A stretch of 54,874 nucleotides of DNA from Arcobacteraceae bacterium. Lineage in GTDB: Bacteria > Campylobacterota > Campylobacteria > Campylobacterales > Arcobacteraceae. Shown here in pieces: positions 22,718 to 29,697 of this stretch. The translations under genes were made by a program, and so were the position numbers. The stretch lies in assembly GCA_028687375.1 (NCBI GenBank), contig JAQUAG010000013.1, positions 1-54,874 on the forward strand, given 5' to 3'. How positions within the stretch are numbered: position 1 is the stretch's first letter; each line of letters begins with the position of its first letter. The notes under the pieces were generated by a model. That model ran no database searches. It was not told the origin of the DNA and saw nothing but the letters and a program-made list of their open reading frames with translations.

Positions 22718-23098
22718 CTATTTTTCTGTCACCAAAGATAAATTTGAGAGGTTATTGAATTGTAAAATATCAAGAAGTTCGACAACTTTTTGGTATGGAA
22801 CAGATTTATCAATCTTAACTGTTATAGCCTCTTGTTTATTTGCAATTACTTCAAGTTTCTCTTGCAGTTTAAGAAAATCAATCTTTTCACCATTATAAGC
22901 GATGTTATTTTGATTTAGCTCGATTGATACCATAGTTTTATTTACCATTGTAGAAGATTTTGCCCCTTGCGGAAGGGTGAGGTTGAGTGCAAAATTCTCT
23001 TTTTTAAAAGATGAACTTACTATAAAAAAGATGATTAAGATAAACACCACATCGATAAGTGGAGTCAAATCAAGTGTGAGGGGTTCTCTTCTTTTCAT
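22718..23098 (-). CDS. exbD: ExbD/TolR-family biopolymer transport protein
   Basis: 126 residues. LTPLIDVVFILIIFFIVSSSF is the single TM helix with its conserved Asp (LIDVVF), which forms the proton path with ExbB. A periplasmic domain follows. Overlaps exbB by 4 nt, last gene of tonB-exbB-exbD. The complex uses proton motive force to energise TonB-dependent outer-membrane receptors, which are not in this window. Confidence 0.88.
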   Translation of the reverse strand: MKRREPLTLDLTPLIDVVFILIIFFIVSSSFKKENFALNLTLPQGAKSSTMVNKTMVSIELNQNNIAYNGEKIDFLKLQEKLEVIANKQEAITVKIDKSVPYQKVVELLDILQFNNLSNLSLVTEK

Positions 23099-23586
23099 AA
23101 TTTACTAAGCACTTCACTCTTTAAAGTTATCTCCATATTGTCTAGTGTACCTATAAAGTAATTATAAAAAATATAGTGAGGGATTGAGACAATAAGTCCA
23201 ACAATAGTGGTAATAAGTGCTAAAGAGATACCACCTGAAAAATTCATAGGATCGTCAAGTCCCACTTTACTAATCACATCAAATGATGTAAATATCCCTA
23301 AAACTGTCCCAAGAAGTCCAAGAAGTGGCGATATTGTTGCTATTATTTTAATGGTATTAAGACCAAATTCTAATTTTTTAATCTCTTGTTGGATTATCAT
23401 CTCAAGTAGATCTTCGTGGTTGTTTTTTATTTTTGCAAAAATTACATTTATTGTTGTTTGGATATCTTTTTTGAAATTGTAAAGATTAAAAAGTTCCATA
23501 AAAATAATTGTAAACCCTACAATATTAAGAGCGATAAGTATATAAACTATCATCCCACCTTTTTCTAAAAATTGTAATATATCCAT
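23095..23586 (-). CDS. exbB: ExbB/TolQ-family proton channel protein
   Basis: 163 residues, the compact epsilonproteobacterial form. Three TM helices; the conserved ISPLLGLLGTVLGIFTSF segment (TM2) and ISLALITTIVGLIVSIPHY (TM3) match MotA/TolQ/ExbB. Between tonB and exbD. Confidence 0.88.
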   Translation of the reverse strand: MDILQFLEKGGMIVYILIALNIVGFTIIFMELFNLYNFKKDIQTTINVIFAKIKNNHEDLLEMIIQQEIKKLEFGLNTIKIIATISPLLGLLGTVLGIFTSFDVISKVGLDDPMNFSGGISLALITTIVGLIVSIPHYIFYNYFIGTLDNMEITLKSEVLSKL

Positions 23587-23602
23587 AATTTATTTTCCTT
23601 GT

Positions 23603-24352
23603 TTAAATGAGTTCGTATTTTACATAAATTCTAATAATTGTTGGCTTGTCAGGGCGAGGATAATCCCTATAAGCTTGATTGATTGTTTCAACTGAATTAT
23701 CATCTAATATATAGTATTTTGAACTTTTAATAATTTTTGGTTCTGTTATTTTTCCGTTTGGATGGAGGATGAACTCTACGACATTTATCCCGCTTTGTTT
23801 TGCTTGAACAGCGATATAGGGATAGATAAGAAATCTTTGGGTGATTTTTCCTATATCTTTGAGGTTTTTGATAAGATAAACTTTTGTTTCTTCTGGGAAG
23901 CTATCAAAATCATCTTTATAAAGCTCCAGATAGCTTTTGGTAATTTTATCGATATTTTCTTCTATTTTTTTGCTTTCAGGTGCTTTTATCTCTTGTATTG
24001 GCTCTTTTGCTATTGGCTTTGACATTGTCTTTTCTACAACTTTAGGTTGATCTTTTTGAACTATTTTAGGAGGTAATTCAAAAGTTTTTACCTCTTTTGG
24101 AAGCTCTATAATTTTTGGTGTATTTTGTGGTGGAGTGATTTTTTCTTTAAAAATCTCTTTGATTGGTTTATCTCTTTGAATCTTTTTTGGAGTTTCTATT
24201 TGTTTATTTGGAAGAAGTTTTACATAGTTGATATGAGTTTTAGAAAGTTTTTGATTTTCTACTGTTGGTGCATCTTTTTTGTGATAGGTTAAATAAAAAA
24301 ATGTAGCTAAATGAAGTGCGACGGATATAAATAAAGCTACTAATATCCTCAT
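23603..24352 (-). CDS. tonB: TonB energy-transducing protein
   Basis: 249 residues. N-terminal TM helix (2-21) with His14 in the position of the conserved TonB His (ALHLATFF), a Lys/Pro/Glu-rich spanning region of about 110 residues and a C-terminal TonB domain (SGINVVEFILHPNGKITEPKIIKSS). First gene of the operon. Confidence 0.85.
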   Translation of the reverse strand: MRILVALFISVALHLATFFYLTYHKKDAPTVENQKLSKTHINYVKLLPNKQIETPKKIQRDKPIKEIFKEKITPPQNTPKIIELPKEVKTFELPPKIVQKDQPKVVEKTMSKPIAKEPIQEIKAPESKKIEENIDKITKSYLELYKDDFDSFPEETKVYLIKNLKDIGKITQRFLIYPYIAVQAKQSGINVVEFILHPNGKITEPKIIKSSKYYILDDNSVETINQAYRDYPRPDKPTIIRIYVKYELI

Positions 24353-24376: not shown

Positions 24377-24730
<354 letters not shown>

Positions 24731-24737
24731 TTAAAAA

Positions 24738-25913
24738 TTAAAATGCTCGTTTAAATTCTGGGTATGCTTCCACACCACATTCATTGACATCAAGTCCCTC
24801 AAGTTCTACATCATGTTTTGCTCTAAGAGGTATGATTTTATTGAGTACAAATAATACAACATAACTACTTACAAAAGCAAAAATTCCAATAACAACAACC
24901 CCTTTTAGTTGGTCTAAAAAAAGTTTATCTGTAAATATTCCAACAGCTAAAGTTCCCCAAATACCATTTACAAGATGAACTGACAATGCACCTACTGGAT
25001 CATCAAGTTGAAATTTATCAAAAAATGGAACAGCAAAAACAACTAAAACTCCACCAATTGCACCAACAATAATTGGTTGATAAATATTGTAAAGATCAGG
25101 TCCAGCGGTAATTGCTACAAGTCCACCTAAAGCACCATTTAAAATCATAGTGATATCCAGTTTTTTATATTTTAAAAGCATCAATCCACCAGCTACAATA
25201 GCACCTATAAGTCCAGCTGTATTTGTATTCAATATTGTAAGAGCAACAGCATCAGCTCCCTCTTTAGAAGCAATGTTTCCAACACTTCCCCCATTAAATC
25301 CAAACCAACCAATCCAAAGTAAAAATGCACCAAGTGTAAGAAGTGGGATATTTGAAGCAGGAATAACTCTTACGATTCCTTCTTTTGTGTATCTTCCTTT
25401 TCTAGCACCTATGATAAAAATAGCTGCTAGTAGTGCCCAACCACCTGTTGAGTGAATAACTGTGCTTCCAGCTAAATCGTACATATTAAGGTCAAAGATA
25501 GTATCTTTTAACATATCACTTCCCCAAGTCCAATTGACAATTAAAGGGTAAACGATACTAGCCATGATTACCGTAAAAAATGTCAATGGGATAATTTTAG
25601 CTCTCTCACTTACCCCTCCACTCATAATATTGACAACTTTTCCAACAAATGCCATTTGGAAAAGAAGTGCCGCCCATTTGCTCATCGTTTCACTTCCAAA
25701 ATCACCAAATGCAATATGATATCCAATAAGTAAAAACCCCATCGATGCAAAAGCATAAATCATAGTGTTCATGGTTAAGACAGCTGTAACATTTTTTGTT
25801 CGAACAATTCCAGCTTCAAGCATCGCAAATCCTGGAACCATAAAAATAATCAACACAAATGAGAATAATACATACAGTGTATTGATTATATAAGCGACAT
25901 TTTCATCCATCAA
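24738..25913 (-). CDS. amtB: ammonium transporter AmtB
   Basis: 391 residues, 11 TM segments. The twin histidines lie in VIHSTGGWALLAA and SVHLVNGIWGTLAVG, and MLEAGIVRTKNV plus GWFGFNGGS are standard Amt signatures. Conducts ammonium into the cell; gated by GlnK encoded just downstream. A perfect -10 TATAAT sits 29 nt upstream, separating it from the PAS gene. Confidence 0.93.
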   Translation of the reverse strand: MMDENVAYIINTLYVLFSFVLIIFMVPGFAMLEAGIVRTKNVTAVLTMNTMIYAFASMGFLLIGYHIAFGDFGSETMSKWAALLFQMAFVGKVVNIMSGGVSERAKIIPLTFFTVIMASIVYPLIVNWTWGSDMLKDTIFDLNMYDLAGSTVIHSTGGWALLAAIFIIGARKGRYTKEGIVRVIPASNIPLLTLGAFLLWIGWFGFNGGSVGNIASKEGADAVALTILNTNTAGLIGAIVAGGLMLLKYKKLDITMILNGALGGLVAITAGPDLYNIYQPIIVGAIGGVLVVFAVPFFDKFQLDDPVGALSVHLVNGIWGTLAVGIFTDKLFLDQLKGVVVIGIFAFVSSYVVLFVLNKIIPLRAKHDVELEGLDVNECGVEAYPEFKRAF

Positions 25914-25988: not shown

Positions 25989-26675
25989 TTATACAATTAA
26001 TGGAAGTTCAACTTTAATTATTTGATTTTTATGGGAAAGATTTATAATTCCATTTCTATTTATATGCGTTGTAAGTGGTGTAAATCTAAGCTTTTCATTT
26101 GCTATGAAATCAATAGAGATAATTTTATATTTTTTAGTATTTATCACCTCATATTCACCTGTTTTTATTGAAACTTTGAGAGTGATTTTATTTTGATCTT
26201 TAAGTTGCTCGAAAACATTATTGATACAAAGTAAAAAATCGTTTACATTGAGTTTAATTAAAGGGATAGAAACATCATAAATCTCCTCAATAATAAGATT
26301 GCACCCAAGGAGCGTTGTACTTTTTGAAAGCTCAATAAGTGTAAAAATATTTGTCTCTTTGAGATTATTATCATCAAGTTTTGTTAACTTAGAGCTATTT
26401 ACCTCTTTATAAAGTCTTAAAATAATCTCATCATCACTAATATAACCAACTAATATCGCATAAAATGATTGTTTTTCATAAGTGATATTTATAAATTCTC
26501 TTTTAAATCCAAAAGTTTTACTCGCATATGAAACAGTTAAATCAAAAAGTTCTTTTGCAGAAGCAAAATTGAGTAAAAATTCAGCTTCCTTATTGAAGTT
26601 TTTTATCTTTCCATCTCCATCAAAAAGGATAAAAGGGTTTAAATCGTATTCTAGTACCTCTTCATATATTGTCAT
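25989..26675 (-). CDS. PAS-domain protein with degenerate kinase-like region
   Basis: 228 residues. The N-terminal 90 residues look like a PAS domain (NPFILFDGDGKIKNFNKEAEFLLNF). The rest has the spacing of a histidine kinase dimerisation/ATPase region, but no phospho-accepting His-Glu motif and no N or G boxes that would bind ATP. Probably a signal-input partner of the adjoining NtrC-like protein. Its start overlaps that gene's stop by one base (TAATG), so the two are translationally coupled. Function by position only. Confidence 0.55.
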   Translation of the reverse strand: MTIYEEVLEYDLNPFILFDGDGKIKNFNKEAEFLLNFASAKELFDLTVSYASKTFGFKREFINITYEKQSFYAILVGYISDDEIILRLYKEVNSSKLTKLDDNNLKETNIFTLIELSKSTTLLGCNLIIEEIYDVSIPLIKLNVNDFLLCINNVFEQLKDQNKITLKVSIKTGEYEVINTKKYKIISIDFIANEKLRFTPLTTHINRNGIINLSHKNQIIKVELPLIV

Positions 26676-27415
26676 TATAGTTCTCCAAAATATTGGTGGA
26701 TTTTTTTTCGTAAAGTGATTCTATTGATTTCCAATTTATCAGCCATTTGCAGTTGTGATTTATAGATTTTTTTTGCTGCTTTTAAAAGTGGAATTTCAAA
26801 AATCTCTATCAAATCTCGATATGTTTCACCATTTTCTAGTTTTTTAGTAAGATAGTTTTCCATTGTTTGTAACATATCTTTTGTATTTATTGATTGCAAA
26901 AGGAGTGATTTATAAATTGATTGTTTAAGTGTGATACCATTTTCACTTAGATCAATCTCCATATTTTTGATAGGAACTTGCGTGTTATAGATACTCATCG
27001 CTTGTTTTTTATATATCTCAATAATCTCTTCTAAATCTTCCGGTCGCTCTTTAAGTGGTGGAATCTCTATTTTGATGGCAAAATATTGGTTTAATTTATC
27101 ATTTTTATCATTATTTGTTCCCACAACTTTGATATTTTTAAGATGTTTAAAAAACTCTTCAATATTGATAATAGTATTTATATTTTCAACTATAATTGAT
27201 TCATATAAAGCTAAATCTATCTGTTTTTCTATAATCAATTTTTCTAATTCACCACCACCTATTAGTAAAGCATTTGGAAGTATCTCTCTTGCTAAAAGTT
27301 TTTTCCCAACACCATTTTGTCCATAAATAAGTGTATTAATAGGTAAATCAGCTGAAAGTTTTGCTGACTTTAATATTTGTTGTGATATTTGCGATGTCGC
27401 TATAAATTTTTCCAT
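26675..27415 (-). CDS. degenerate NtrC-like AAA+/Fis-HTH regulator
   Basis: 246 residues, shorter than sigma-54 activators (about 450). It has a weak Walker A (GQNGVGKK), a Walker-B-like segment with the aspartate lost (ESIIVENI), PPLKERPEDLEEI and a C-terminal Fis HTH (LQMADKLEINRITLRKKI). The GAFTGA loop that contacts sigma-54 and a receiver domain are absent. It is therefore unlikely to activate sigma-54 and more likely binds DNA as a simple regulator. Coupled (TAATG) to both the molybdoprotein gene and the PAS gene. Confidence 0.65.
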   Translation of the reverse strand: MEKFIATSQISQQILKSAKLSADLPINTLIYGQNGVGKKLLAREILPNALLIGGGELEKLIIEKQIDLALYESIIVENINTIINIEEFFKHLKNIKVVGTNNDKNDKLNQYFAIKIEIPPLKERPEDLEEIIEIYKKQAMSIYNTQVPIKNMEIDLSENGITLKQSIYKSLLLQSINTKDMLQTMENYLTKKLENGETYRDLIEIFEIPLLKAAKKIYKSQLQMADKLEINRITLRKKIHQYFGEL

Positions 27416-29697
27416 TAAACCTCTTTTGCTATAAATATTTTTGCTCTATATTTCAACTCTTTTAGAGCTTCACTTGTTATATGGTATTCATCTCCGAAAG
27501 GGAGTTGTTTACCACCAAGTTTTCCATAAAAAATAAATTGATCTTTTGGAGTAGATAATCTCTTTGTATAAAAATCATCACTTGTATTAAATCTGTATTT
27601 TGTTTCAGAAGTAGAAATAATAGGCCATTTTTCGTAAAAATCACTTGAATATTGAGAAAATGTGGCTAAATCGTATCCATTTCCAGCTCCAAATAAGCGA
27701 AGTTCCTCAAAAAGATACTTTTGTATAAAAAATTTATACCCATGAAACAATTTTCCATTTTCTCCAAAAAGTGATCTTTTATCACTTTTAACTTCACTAT
27801 TAAGTATATTTGAATCATAAAACTCTTCGCTGGAGAGAGGATATCTTTTTGATTTTAAGTTTGCAAATAAAACTTCAAAGAGTGTAGTTTCTTTTGTATA
27901 CTTAAATGATGAAAGATTTTCTAAAACATTTTTTAATCCAAAAGTGTTATCAATTTTACTATTTCCCCAAACTTCTTTGAGTTTAAATCTTTTAGAAAAT
28001 TCAACAATTTGCCAAAGCTCACTCATACTCTCTCCATAAGGTTCGATATGTTGTTTTCCTAGTGTTATCTCCCTTTGTGAATTCTCATATCCAATATGTT
28101 TTTCAAAGTGATTTGCTGTAGGTAAAACAAGATCAACTTCAAGGGAAAAATCATCAAAATAAGGATTTGAATAGACTATAAAGCTATCTTTTACATCATT
28201 CAAATAATCACTATAAGTAGTAAGTTCTCCACTATTACACCCTAAAATCCATAAAAAATTTGTCGTTTTATCATTAAACTTTTTAAGAGTTGCAAAAATA
28301 TTTTCAGTTGCTATACTATTGAGAGTATTTTCTGGTAAATTCCAAATAGATTCTGTTTTTTCTCTATGTTGTTTATATTTTGTAAACATTCCACAAGGGA
28401 GTCTTTGAGAACTATTTGCACTGTTTAAAGAGGTTGTTGCGGAAAGTTTTTGACTATGAAGATATAAAATACCACAACCAATTTTTCCAAAATTATTTGA
28501 TAATAGATGTAAAGAGTGGAGGAGAATATTTACCTTTAGAGATATTGAATCTTTTTTTGAATCAAGATAACAAAGAACTTTTGTGTTATTTTTCGTATAA
28601 GCATTTTTTATAAGAGCTAGTTTAAATTTGAATTGGGAAATATCTTCTTCCGTTATTTTAATTTTATCTATTACAAAATCAAGTGTAAATTTTTGAAAAT
28701 ATTTTTTATATGTATTAAAAGAGATTTCCCATTGAAGCAATTTATCATCATTTATGAGTATTTCATTATCAAAAGTGGCAAATACAACTCTATTTTGTAA
28801 GAAATAAAGATCTTCATCTTGAATATTTTGAAGTGTTTGATTGATCAAATAATTCAATAAAAATATTTCACTATCAGGTTTTATTTGAAAATTTATATCT
28901 GCATTATCAATTTTTTGATTTTCATTTGTGATGATATTTATAAATGAAAATTGTTCATTTTTTTTGTATTTTTCCCTTAAAACTTTTGAATAAAGAATTT
29001 GAAAGTCTTCTGTAAAATTGATATTAAAAGAGAGAAAAACATCACATTGCGAAATATCATCAAAAGTTCCATTTGAACCATCTATTCCAAAAGTTTGGAT
29101 AAGTCCAAAGGCATTTCTTTCCACTTCATAATTGATATTTCCTATATTATTTGAACGAAAACCACCTTTGAATAGTTTAGCAAGAGCATAAGATTCGTAT
29201 ATAGACAATGATTCACTAACAATAGTTCCAACTCCATCTATACCATTTTTTTTGAGAGATTGTTTACTTTTTTGTTCCATAATATCAAAAGCTTTTTCCC
29301 AAGAAATAGGGGTTAGAATACCATTTTTATCATATTTTTCATTTGTCATCTTTAAAAGTGGTGTTTCTATTCTTGGGATATATGAATCATACTTAAAATG
29401 TAATTGAGAAATCTTTTGACAAAGTTCACCTTGATTTACAAGTGATTTTTTATCTCCTTCTATTGTATTAATAGAGATTAAGCCATTGTCATCTTGCTTA
29501 TTAACTATTAAATGGCAACCAATACTACAAAGAGGACATATAGATTTATTAGAAAAGTAAGTTATTTTCTTCAAATCTTTTTTCTCATCTTTTGAAGTAG
29601 ATTGCTCCTTTGTAGGTAGATTTGTTGCAAAAAGATATGTTGTAGGTAATGTGGAAAAAAACAATGTTTGTTTTATAAAATTTCTTCTGTTAATCAT
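27415..29697 (-). CDS. NapA-like molybdopterin oxidoreductase lacking the Mo-ligand Cys
   Basis: 760 residues, against about 920 for epsilonproteobacterial NapA. Tat signal NRRNFIK (3-9). The 4Fe-4S cysteines are intact: Cys54, Cys57, Cys61, Cys93. KLFKGGFRSNNI (175-185) and TFGIDGSNGTFDDI align with NapA. In NapA the Mo-ligand lies in NARHCMAS; the aligned stretch here is NINYEVER, placing Glu191 where Cys should be. It may be a catalytically altered or sensory paralogue. No NapB/G/H partners follow; the downstream regulator and PAS genes are coupled to it. Confidence 0.75.
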   Translation of the reverse strand: MINRRNFIKQTLFFSTLPTTYLFATNLPTKEQSTSKDEKKDLKKITYFSNKSICPLCSIGCHLIVNKQDDNGLISINTIEGDKKSLVNQGELCQKISQLHFKYDSYIPRIETPLLKMTNEKYDKNGILTPISWEKAFDIMEQKSKQSLKKNGIDGVGTIVSESLSIYESYALAKLFKGGFRSNNIGNINYEVERNAFGLIQTFGIDGSNGTFDDISQCDVFLSFNINFTEDFQILYSKVLREKYKKNEQFSFINIITNENQKIDNADINFQIKPDSEIFLLNYLINQTLQNIQDEDLYFLQNRVVFATFDNEILINDDKLLQWEISFNTYKKYFQKFTLDFVIDKIKITEEDISQFKFKLALIKNAYTKNNTKVLCYLDSKKDSISLKVNILLHSLHLLSNNFGKIGCGILYLHSQKLSATTSLNSANSSQRLPCGMFTKYKQHREKTESIWNLPENTLNSIATENIFATLKKFNDKTTNFLWILGCNSGELTTYSDYLNDVKDSFIVYSNPYFDDFSLEVDLVLPTANHFEKHIGYENSQREITLGKQHIEPYGESMSELWQIVEFSKRFKLKEVWGNSKIDNTFGLKNVLENLSSFKYTKETTLFEVLFANLKSKRYPLSSEEFYDSNILNSEVKSDKRSLFGENGKLFHGYKFFIQKYLFEELRLFGAGNGYDLATFSQYSSDFYEKWPIISTSETKYRFNTSDDFYTKRLSTPKDQFIFYGKLGGKQLPFGDEYHITSEALKELKYRAKIFIAKEV

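Follow-up and report, generated by a model that had tools for sequence, protein, structure and literature searches.

What is a NapA-like protein that has lost the Cys ligand of its molybdenum (Mo) doing beside amtB and glnK? The question is raised by a gene in a 54,874-nucleotide stretch of DNA from an Arcobacteraceae bacterium (assembly GCA_028687375.1, contig JAQUAG010000013.1), herein referred to as the window. A preliminary description of the window proposed that this relative of the periplasmic nitrate reductase NapA, with Glu191 in place of the ligand Cys, may have become a sensor or regulatory component of nitrogen or redox control. In our best reading, a NapA-derived, molybdenum-free iron-sulfur (Fe-S) pseudoenzyme has been added to a nitrogen-control locus, and the job that it does there is one that we infer; it looks like a retired enzyme retained for another job. 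The gene and its informative parts are the following.

27415-29697, minus strand: putative NapA-like pseudoenzyme gene, 760 amino acids (aa), with NapA-fold domains I-III; the C-terminal domain IV is missing

29626-29697, minus strand: twin-arginine motif RRNFI, then a hydrophobic stretch, at the N-terminus of the NapA-like protein; similar to a twin-arginine translocation (Tat) signal, with no match to TIGR01409

29413-29538, minus strand: [4Fe-4S] motif C54-x2-C57-x3-C61-x31-C93-x-K95, retained in 5/5 orthologues

29125-29127, minus strand: codon of Glu191, at the NapA Mo-ligand Cys position in the alignment

The window protein is clearly descended from NapA. Two NapA models, NF010055 and TIGR01706, cover nearly its full length with scores of 433 and 407 bits, under half of the respective cut-offs (904 and 930.55 bits); the genome's own NapA scores 1435 and 1350 bits, well above both. 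NF010055 scores of the copies are 684 bits for G002, 433 for G000 and 347 for G003, all below 904 (G000 is the genome of the window, other G numbers denote the genomes of relatives, and L numbers denote examined loci). Chance resemblance is excluded because the 433-bit score is accompanied by four orthologues. In Pfam, the protein matches the molybdopterin oxidoreductase and Fe4S4 domains, and its closest solved structures are periplasmic nitrate reductases. An AlphaFold2 model built from 12 sequences (mean predicted local distance difference test, pLDDT, 65.9) compares with Escherichia coli NapA at Z 31.0 and a root-mean-square deviation of 3.3 over 571 residues; because it holds no cofactor, it informs on the fold only. 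Domains I-III, the Fe-S motif, the twin-arginine motif and further segments are shared with campylobacterial NapA. The window protein differs from NapA in its score far below the cut-off and in the absence of the Mo-ligand Cys, of the motifs contacting the molybdenum cofactor (Moco), of domain IV and of adjacent nap partners.

The substitution itself was described correctly, since Glu191 aligns with the Mo-ligand Cys of NapA and T202-F203-G204 with its TFG. It is not a ligand swapped in an otherwise intact site, and the preliminary description missed the larger change, the loss of the Moco motifs and the C-terminal domain. The WTMGxNQHTRGxW motif, counted by eye in the alignment, has 0/11 invariant positions left in four orthologues (the window's included) and 3/11 in G002; the DPNARHCMASAV and LTGQPSACGTAR motifs are eroded in the copies as aligned with NapA. 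We take these eroded motifs to be cofactor contacts, as in the structures of NapA and formate dehydrogenase. Domain IV is missing in G000, G003 and G006, three of the four copies that are complete in that region; the contig of the incomplete G001 copy ends inside the gene. The C-terminal dinucleotide-binding domain PF01568 gave no Pfam match in the G000 and G003 copies and was matched only in G002 (28.0 bits, cut-off 26.8).

Motif loss is unevenly spread along the copies. Among 333 reference columns, each invariant in at least 36 of 37 NapA sequences, 133 are retained in G000, 115 in G003, 99 in the incomplete G001, 111 in G006 and 175 in G002. In the same order, the copies retain 12, 14, 12, 12 and 20 of 45 such columns at NapA positions 401-480 (WTMGxNQHTRGxW and LTGQPSACGTAR), 22, 18, 19, 20 and 27 of 34 at positions 561-640, and 0, 0, 0 (contig end), 0 and 19 of 47 at positions 841-960. 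In all five copies, only 8 NapA-invariant columns have changed to a shared residue; the change from Cys to Glu is one of 24 such columns that hold just for the four short copies.

Other features have been kept. The four Fe-S cysteines, whose retention had been noted before, are present in all five orthologues together with the lysine of C-x-K and the RR-x-F motif. In NapA, this lysine probably connects the cluster and the pterin. The Tat signal of the preliminary description stands in part: the twin-arginine motif RRNFI is there, and the Tat model TIGR01409 matches genuine NapA and none of the three NapA-like copies scanned. A conserved Cys elsewhere near the Mo site, which the preliminary description had named as contrary evidence, was not found; only the four Fe-S cysteines are common to all five orthologues, which rules out a substitute Cys. 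The G001 copy has a Cys immediately before its Glu.

The sequences indicate loss of the Mo-ligand Cys, of the main molybdopterin-contact motifs and of the cofactor-binding C-terminal domain, and persistence of the Fe-S cysteines, the C-x-K lysine, the twin-arginine motif and domains I-III with no stop codons. They support the loss of nitrate-reductase chemistry, and the protein is very probably a NapA-derived, Moco-free pseudoenzyme; carried through to the statement that it does not reduce nitrate, and weighted by doubt about the rest, this reading is still a likely one. An active molybdoenzyme with Glu as its new Mo ligand and a different substrate would agree with Glu at the ligand position (ungapped in 4/5 copies, and in 5/5 in the MAFFT alignment) and with the retained Fe-S site and C-x-K lysine. 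Carboxylate (Asp) ligands are known in NarG-type enzymes. Against such an enzyme stand the lost cofactor-contact motifs and domain IV, the absence of a fifth conserved Cys and the lack of an adjacent redox partner gene, which make it very improbable. With the rest of the site and domain IV lost, Glu as a true Mo ligand was rejected as the leading idea.

Moco loss has precedents. According to PMC5123574, NuoG of complex I is a protein with a molybdenum/tungsten-bis-pyranopterin guanine dinucleotide (Mo/W-bisPGD) family domain that has lost Moco while retaining the Fe-S cluster in the FS0 position, as the window protein appears to have done. NuoG differs in being a complex I subunit of another lineage, whereas the window protein is NapA-derived and stands alone. 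QrcB and ActB are also catalytic-subunit relatives that contain no Mo cofactor (PMC6303296); unlike the window protein, they belong to large membrane complexes with partner subunits and are not NapA-derived. The window protein scores below the cut-offs of both the NuoG model TIGR01973 (70.9 vs. 470 bits) and the QrcB model NF041783 (19.4 vs. 440 bits). Judged from sequence and predicted fold, it appears to combine what marks a Moco-free protein of the Mo/W-bisPGD type, namely the family fold, a lost Moco site and a retained FS0-type Fe-S motif. R109 and E532, invariant in the copies and in the NapA rows of the alignment, may be equivalent by position, not by alignment, to the salt bridge that PMC5123574 describes as conserved across the family, Moco-free NuoG included. 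No description of a NapA pseudoenzyme or of such an Arcobacter paralogue was found in a literature search.

The intact cluster motif in 5/5 copies would also suit an Fe-S-only catalyst, with redox chemistry at the [4Fe-4S] cluster instead of Moco. This has been proposed for Salmonella Psr proteins in a preprint (PMC12636705). According to this preprint, those proteins are DmsA-derived, have B and C subunits, still possess the whole fold with its Ser ligand and probably load Moco (PMC12636705). With no partner subunits at the NapA-like locus, such a catalyst is decidedly unlikely here.

The NapA-like gene was found in 5/8 genomes of one Arcobacter-type genus and, among the family's remaining 96 genomes, in none (5/104 in total) at E<=1e-92, a threshold only slightly tighter than the E value of the best genuine NapA (3.8e-90), at which strongly diverged independent cases would escape. 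Of 398 genomes sampled evenly across the order, two carry the gene, both from the same genus. The genome collection yielded 14 loci, four of which correspond by name to these orthologues (L105, L106, L107, and L114) and ten of which match at 30-31%, as NapA does; viral contigs gave no match to the gene. By name, the relatives carrying it are Arcobacter-type metagenome-assembled genomes (MAGs). The title of the L105 MAG contig (CAMCYD010000100.1), Helicobacter pylori PMSS1, appears to be mistaken; the contig groups with the Arcobacter-type genus.

All five copies fall into a single clade of the NapA tree with 100/100 support, on long branches that make their attachment among the NapA lineages unsure. 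The orthologues are about half identical. The ratio of third- to second-position differences (p3/p2) for the G000-G003 pair is 1.72 for the NapA-like gene, 4.95 for the AAA+/Fis gene that follows it, 6.29 for the next, PAS-like gene and 8.78 for amtB; over all pairs, the ranges are 1.35-2.26 (10 pairs), 2.45-7.81, 2.41-6.29 and 6.48-15.30, respectively. Internal stop codons are absent from every NapA-like copy, and a neutral simulation at 40% divergence (200 runs) gave a mean of 51 stops and a minimum of 31. On these sequence comparisons, the gene is still under selection, but relaxed, and is fast-evolving.

A decaying relic with no function would explain the fast evolution with low p3/p2, the stepwise truncation (G002 long, the others short) and the absence of the gene from 3/8 congeners. 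Yet there are zero stop codons where neutral drift gives about 51, and the Fe-S cysteines, the twin arginines and many further positions are invariant; this explanation is accordingly improbable. Several observations nevertheless weigh against the Moco-free pseudoenzyme. The gene is dispensable, being missing from those three congeners, and may be in the process of being lost. In the G002 copy, the ligand position is Ser when ungapped and becomes Glu only with compensating gaps (MAFFT), which leaves four copies with a demonstrated conserved Glu. The C-x-K lysine, retained in 5/5, is compatible with residual cofactor binding, and the structure model is of poor quality towards its end.

The G002 copy also bears on the origin of the gene. 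It is 871 aa long, with a degenerate domain IV still there, and a 54-aa open reading frame (ORF; L088:353-517, minus strand) starts one base past its stop codon. This ORF is 45% identical over 42 aa to the NapB N-terminus of G028 (E 1.3e-4, in a search against only three NapB sequences) and is not recognized by NCBIfam; it is a possible NapB remnant. A lipobox-like FFVAC was seen in it. Together, the degenerate domain IV and the NapB-like ORF point to a duplicated nap cluster, later pared down, as the probable source. As the preliminary description had it, no electron-transfer partner adjoins the NapA-like gene; the full nap cluster with an intact napA lies on another contig of the same genome (G000:C19, L089). 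At the end of this nap cluster, directly after the NapD-like gene, is a small stand-alone PAS protein (L089:4400-4867 in G000; PAS_3, 61 bits), found also in L095 and L123, in several genomes of the genus.

On the minus strand, the NapA-like gene is followed by four genes.

26675-27415, minus strand: AAA+/Fis protein, NtrC-like, 246 aa; Walker A retained, no GAFTGA and no Walker B DE; Fis-type helix-turn-helix (HTH)

25989-26675, minus strand: regulator-like "PAS" protein, 228 aa; possibly degenerate NtrB-like, with no H box or ATP-binding boxes

24738-25913, minus strand: amtB, ammonium transporter; context gene, named by recognition

24377-24715, minus strand: glnK, PII protein; context gene, named by recognition

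The setting beside amtB-glnK was correctly seen as one of nitrogen-control genes; we take the two identities from that description and from recognition rather than from a family scan. Both junctions of the three-ORF run read TAATG, again as described. The NapA-like gene adjoins rpsA in G000, G003, G001, and G002 and a MobA-like gene in G006 (names by recognition). In G000, G003, and G006 it is followed by the AAA+/Fis, PAS-like, amtB, and glnK genes, and it overlaps the AAA+/Fis gene by 4 bases in G003 and by a short stretch in G006. In G002 the regulator pair is on a different contig from the NapA-like copy, and G005 and G007 have the regulator pair with amtB-glnK and no NapA-like gene. After glnK, exbB, exbD, and TonB-like genes (names by recognition) are found at 22718-24352 of the window, likewise in G005 and G006. 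A scan gave 28 promoter-like sites (33.5 expected) and one terminator-like site (1.2 expected).

Relatives of the AAA+/Fis protein were found in 49/60 genomes, and relatives of the PAS-like protein likewise in 49/60, which rules out both as dedicated partners of the NapA-like protein. The preliminary description had tied the pair to this protein; it is widespread, mostly with no NapA relative. Among the best 30 matches to the AAA+/Fis protein, window included, 24 loci have an amtB, glnK, or GlnD-like gene within 1.5 kb, mostly with no NapA relative; the loci with none of these genes nearby are L040, L041, L055, L061, L062, and L063. The reported absence of GAFTGA extends to the whole family (0/25 homologues, even allowing two mismatches); Walker A is present in 25/25 and Walker B DE in 0/25. 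Sigma-54 activation by this protein is therefore unlikely. With the NtrC model TIGR01818 it scores 31.8 bits (cut-off 558.6). Judging by its context, it most likely binds DNA and serves nitrogen control.

As to the "PAS" protein, a small coupled protein is indeed there, and it is the label that is weak. The 228-aa protein matches no Pfam family at E<=1; one homologue matches PAS at E=0.007 (16.8 bits, below the cut-off of 22.6) and another matches NtrB/NR(II) at E=0.0018. The H box and the D.G.G box are each found in 0/21 family members, the family profile gave nothing below E 0.39 in the PDB, and the structure model (mean pLDDT 42) was not used. Outside this genus group, the relatives adjoin an rpoD-like (sigma-70) gene in 8/8 loci (L077-L084). 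With NtrB/NtrC, the neighbour pair shares the NtrC-type AAA+ and Fis HTH matches and a weakly NtrB-like homologue of the 228-aa protein; it differs in having no receiver, GAFTGA, Walker B DE, H box or D.G.G box.

The role suggested by the preliminary description, in which the protein would feed redox or nitrate signals to the nitrogen regulators, fits the coupling to the AAA+/Fis gene in the window, G003, and G006, as well as the position of AAA+/Fis genes beside real molybdoenzyme genes elsewhere. In G028 (L096:6528-14628) the AAA+/Fis gene is flanked by amtB-glnK and by a cluster headed by napA, a hint that nap may be controlled by this regulator family; in G023 (L119:3941-9370) it has a GlnD gene on one side and, on the other, a Nas/Fdh-like molybdoenzyme whose Cys is intact. 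However, both regulators are widespread with no NapA relative, the G002 copy is not beside them, and the retained twin-arginine motif makes the protein probably periplasmic, whereas the regulators are cytoplasmic. A sensor feeding them needs a path across the membrane, because a periplasmic protein cannot touch cytoplasmic regulators directly. We regard a sensor or regulatory role as possible, and this particular input to the regulators as unlikely.

For the Moco-free pseudoenzyme, the following course may be proposed. The napA gene would have been duplicated and one copy would have become a pseudoenzyme, whose product would fold around the [4Fe-4S] cluster with its cofactor pocket empty, as in NuoG, and would be exported with no nitrate reduction. 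Less surely, it might act in the periplasm by binding partners or transferring electrons, for instance to modulate Nap or to hold Nap partners such as NapB; a particular partner-binding role is proposed tentatively. Its expression might follow nitrogen status, because the gene comes first, ahead of the AAA+/Fis, PAS-like, amtB, and glnK genes. A further possibility is that NapA has become a periplasmic protein with only a [4Fe-4S] cluster and no Moco, which either signals redox or nitrate conditions to a conserved nitrogen-control locus of Campylobacterota or tunes Nap under the control of that locus; taken as a whole, this is unlikely.

The known precedents of Moco loss, NuoG (PMC5123574) and QrcB and ActB (PMC6303296), all lie in large respiratory complexes, and this would be a separate, NapA-derived case. 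With its degenerate domain IV and NapB-like remnant, the G002 copy would be an intermediate, and the range from long through truncated to missing copies in a single genus may make the steps of Moco loss traceable. Counts of nitrate reductases based on NapA-family matches in metagenomes may include non-enzymes. The locus also points to a minimal regulator of the NtrC type whose gene is linked, across the order, with amtB, glnK, and GlnD genes. If the NapA-like protein does report to, or tune, nitrogen control, a nitrate reductase would have been recruited as a regulator.

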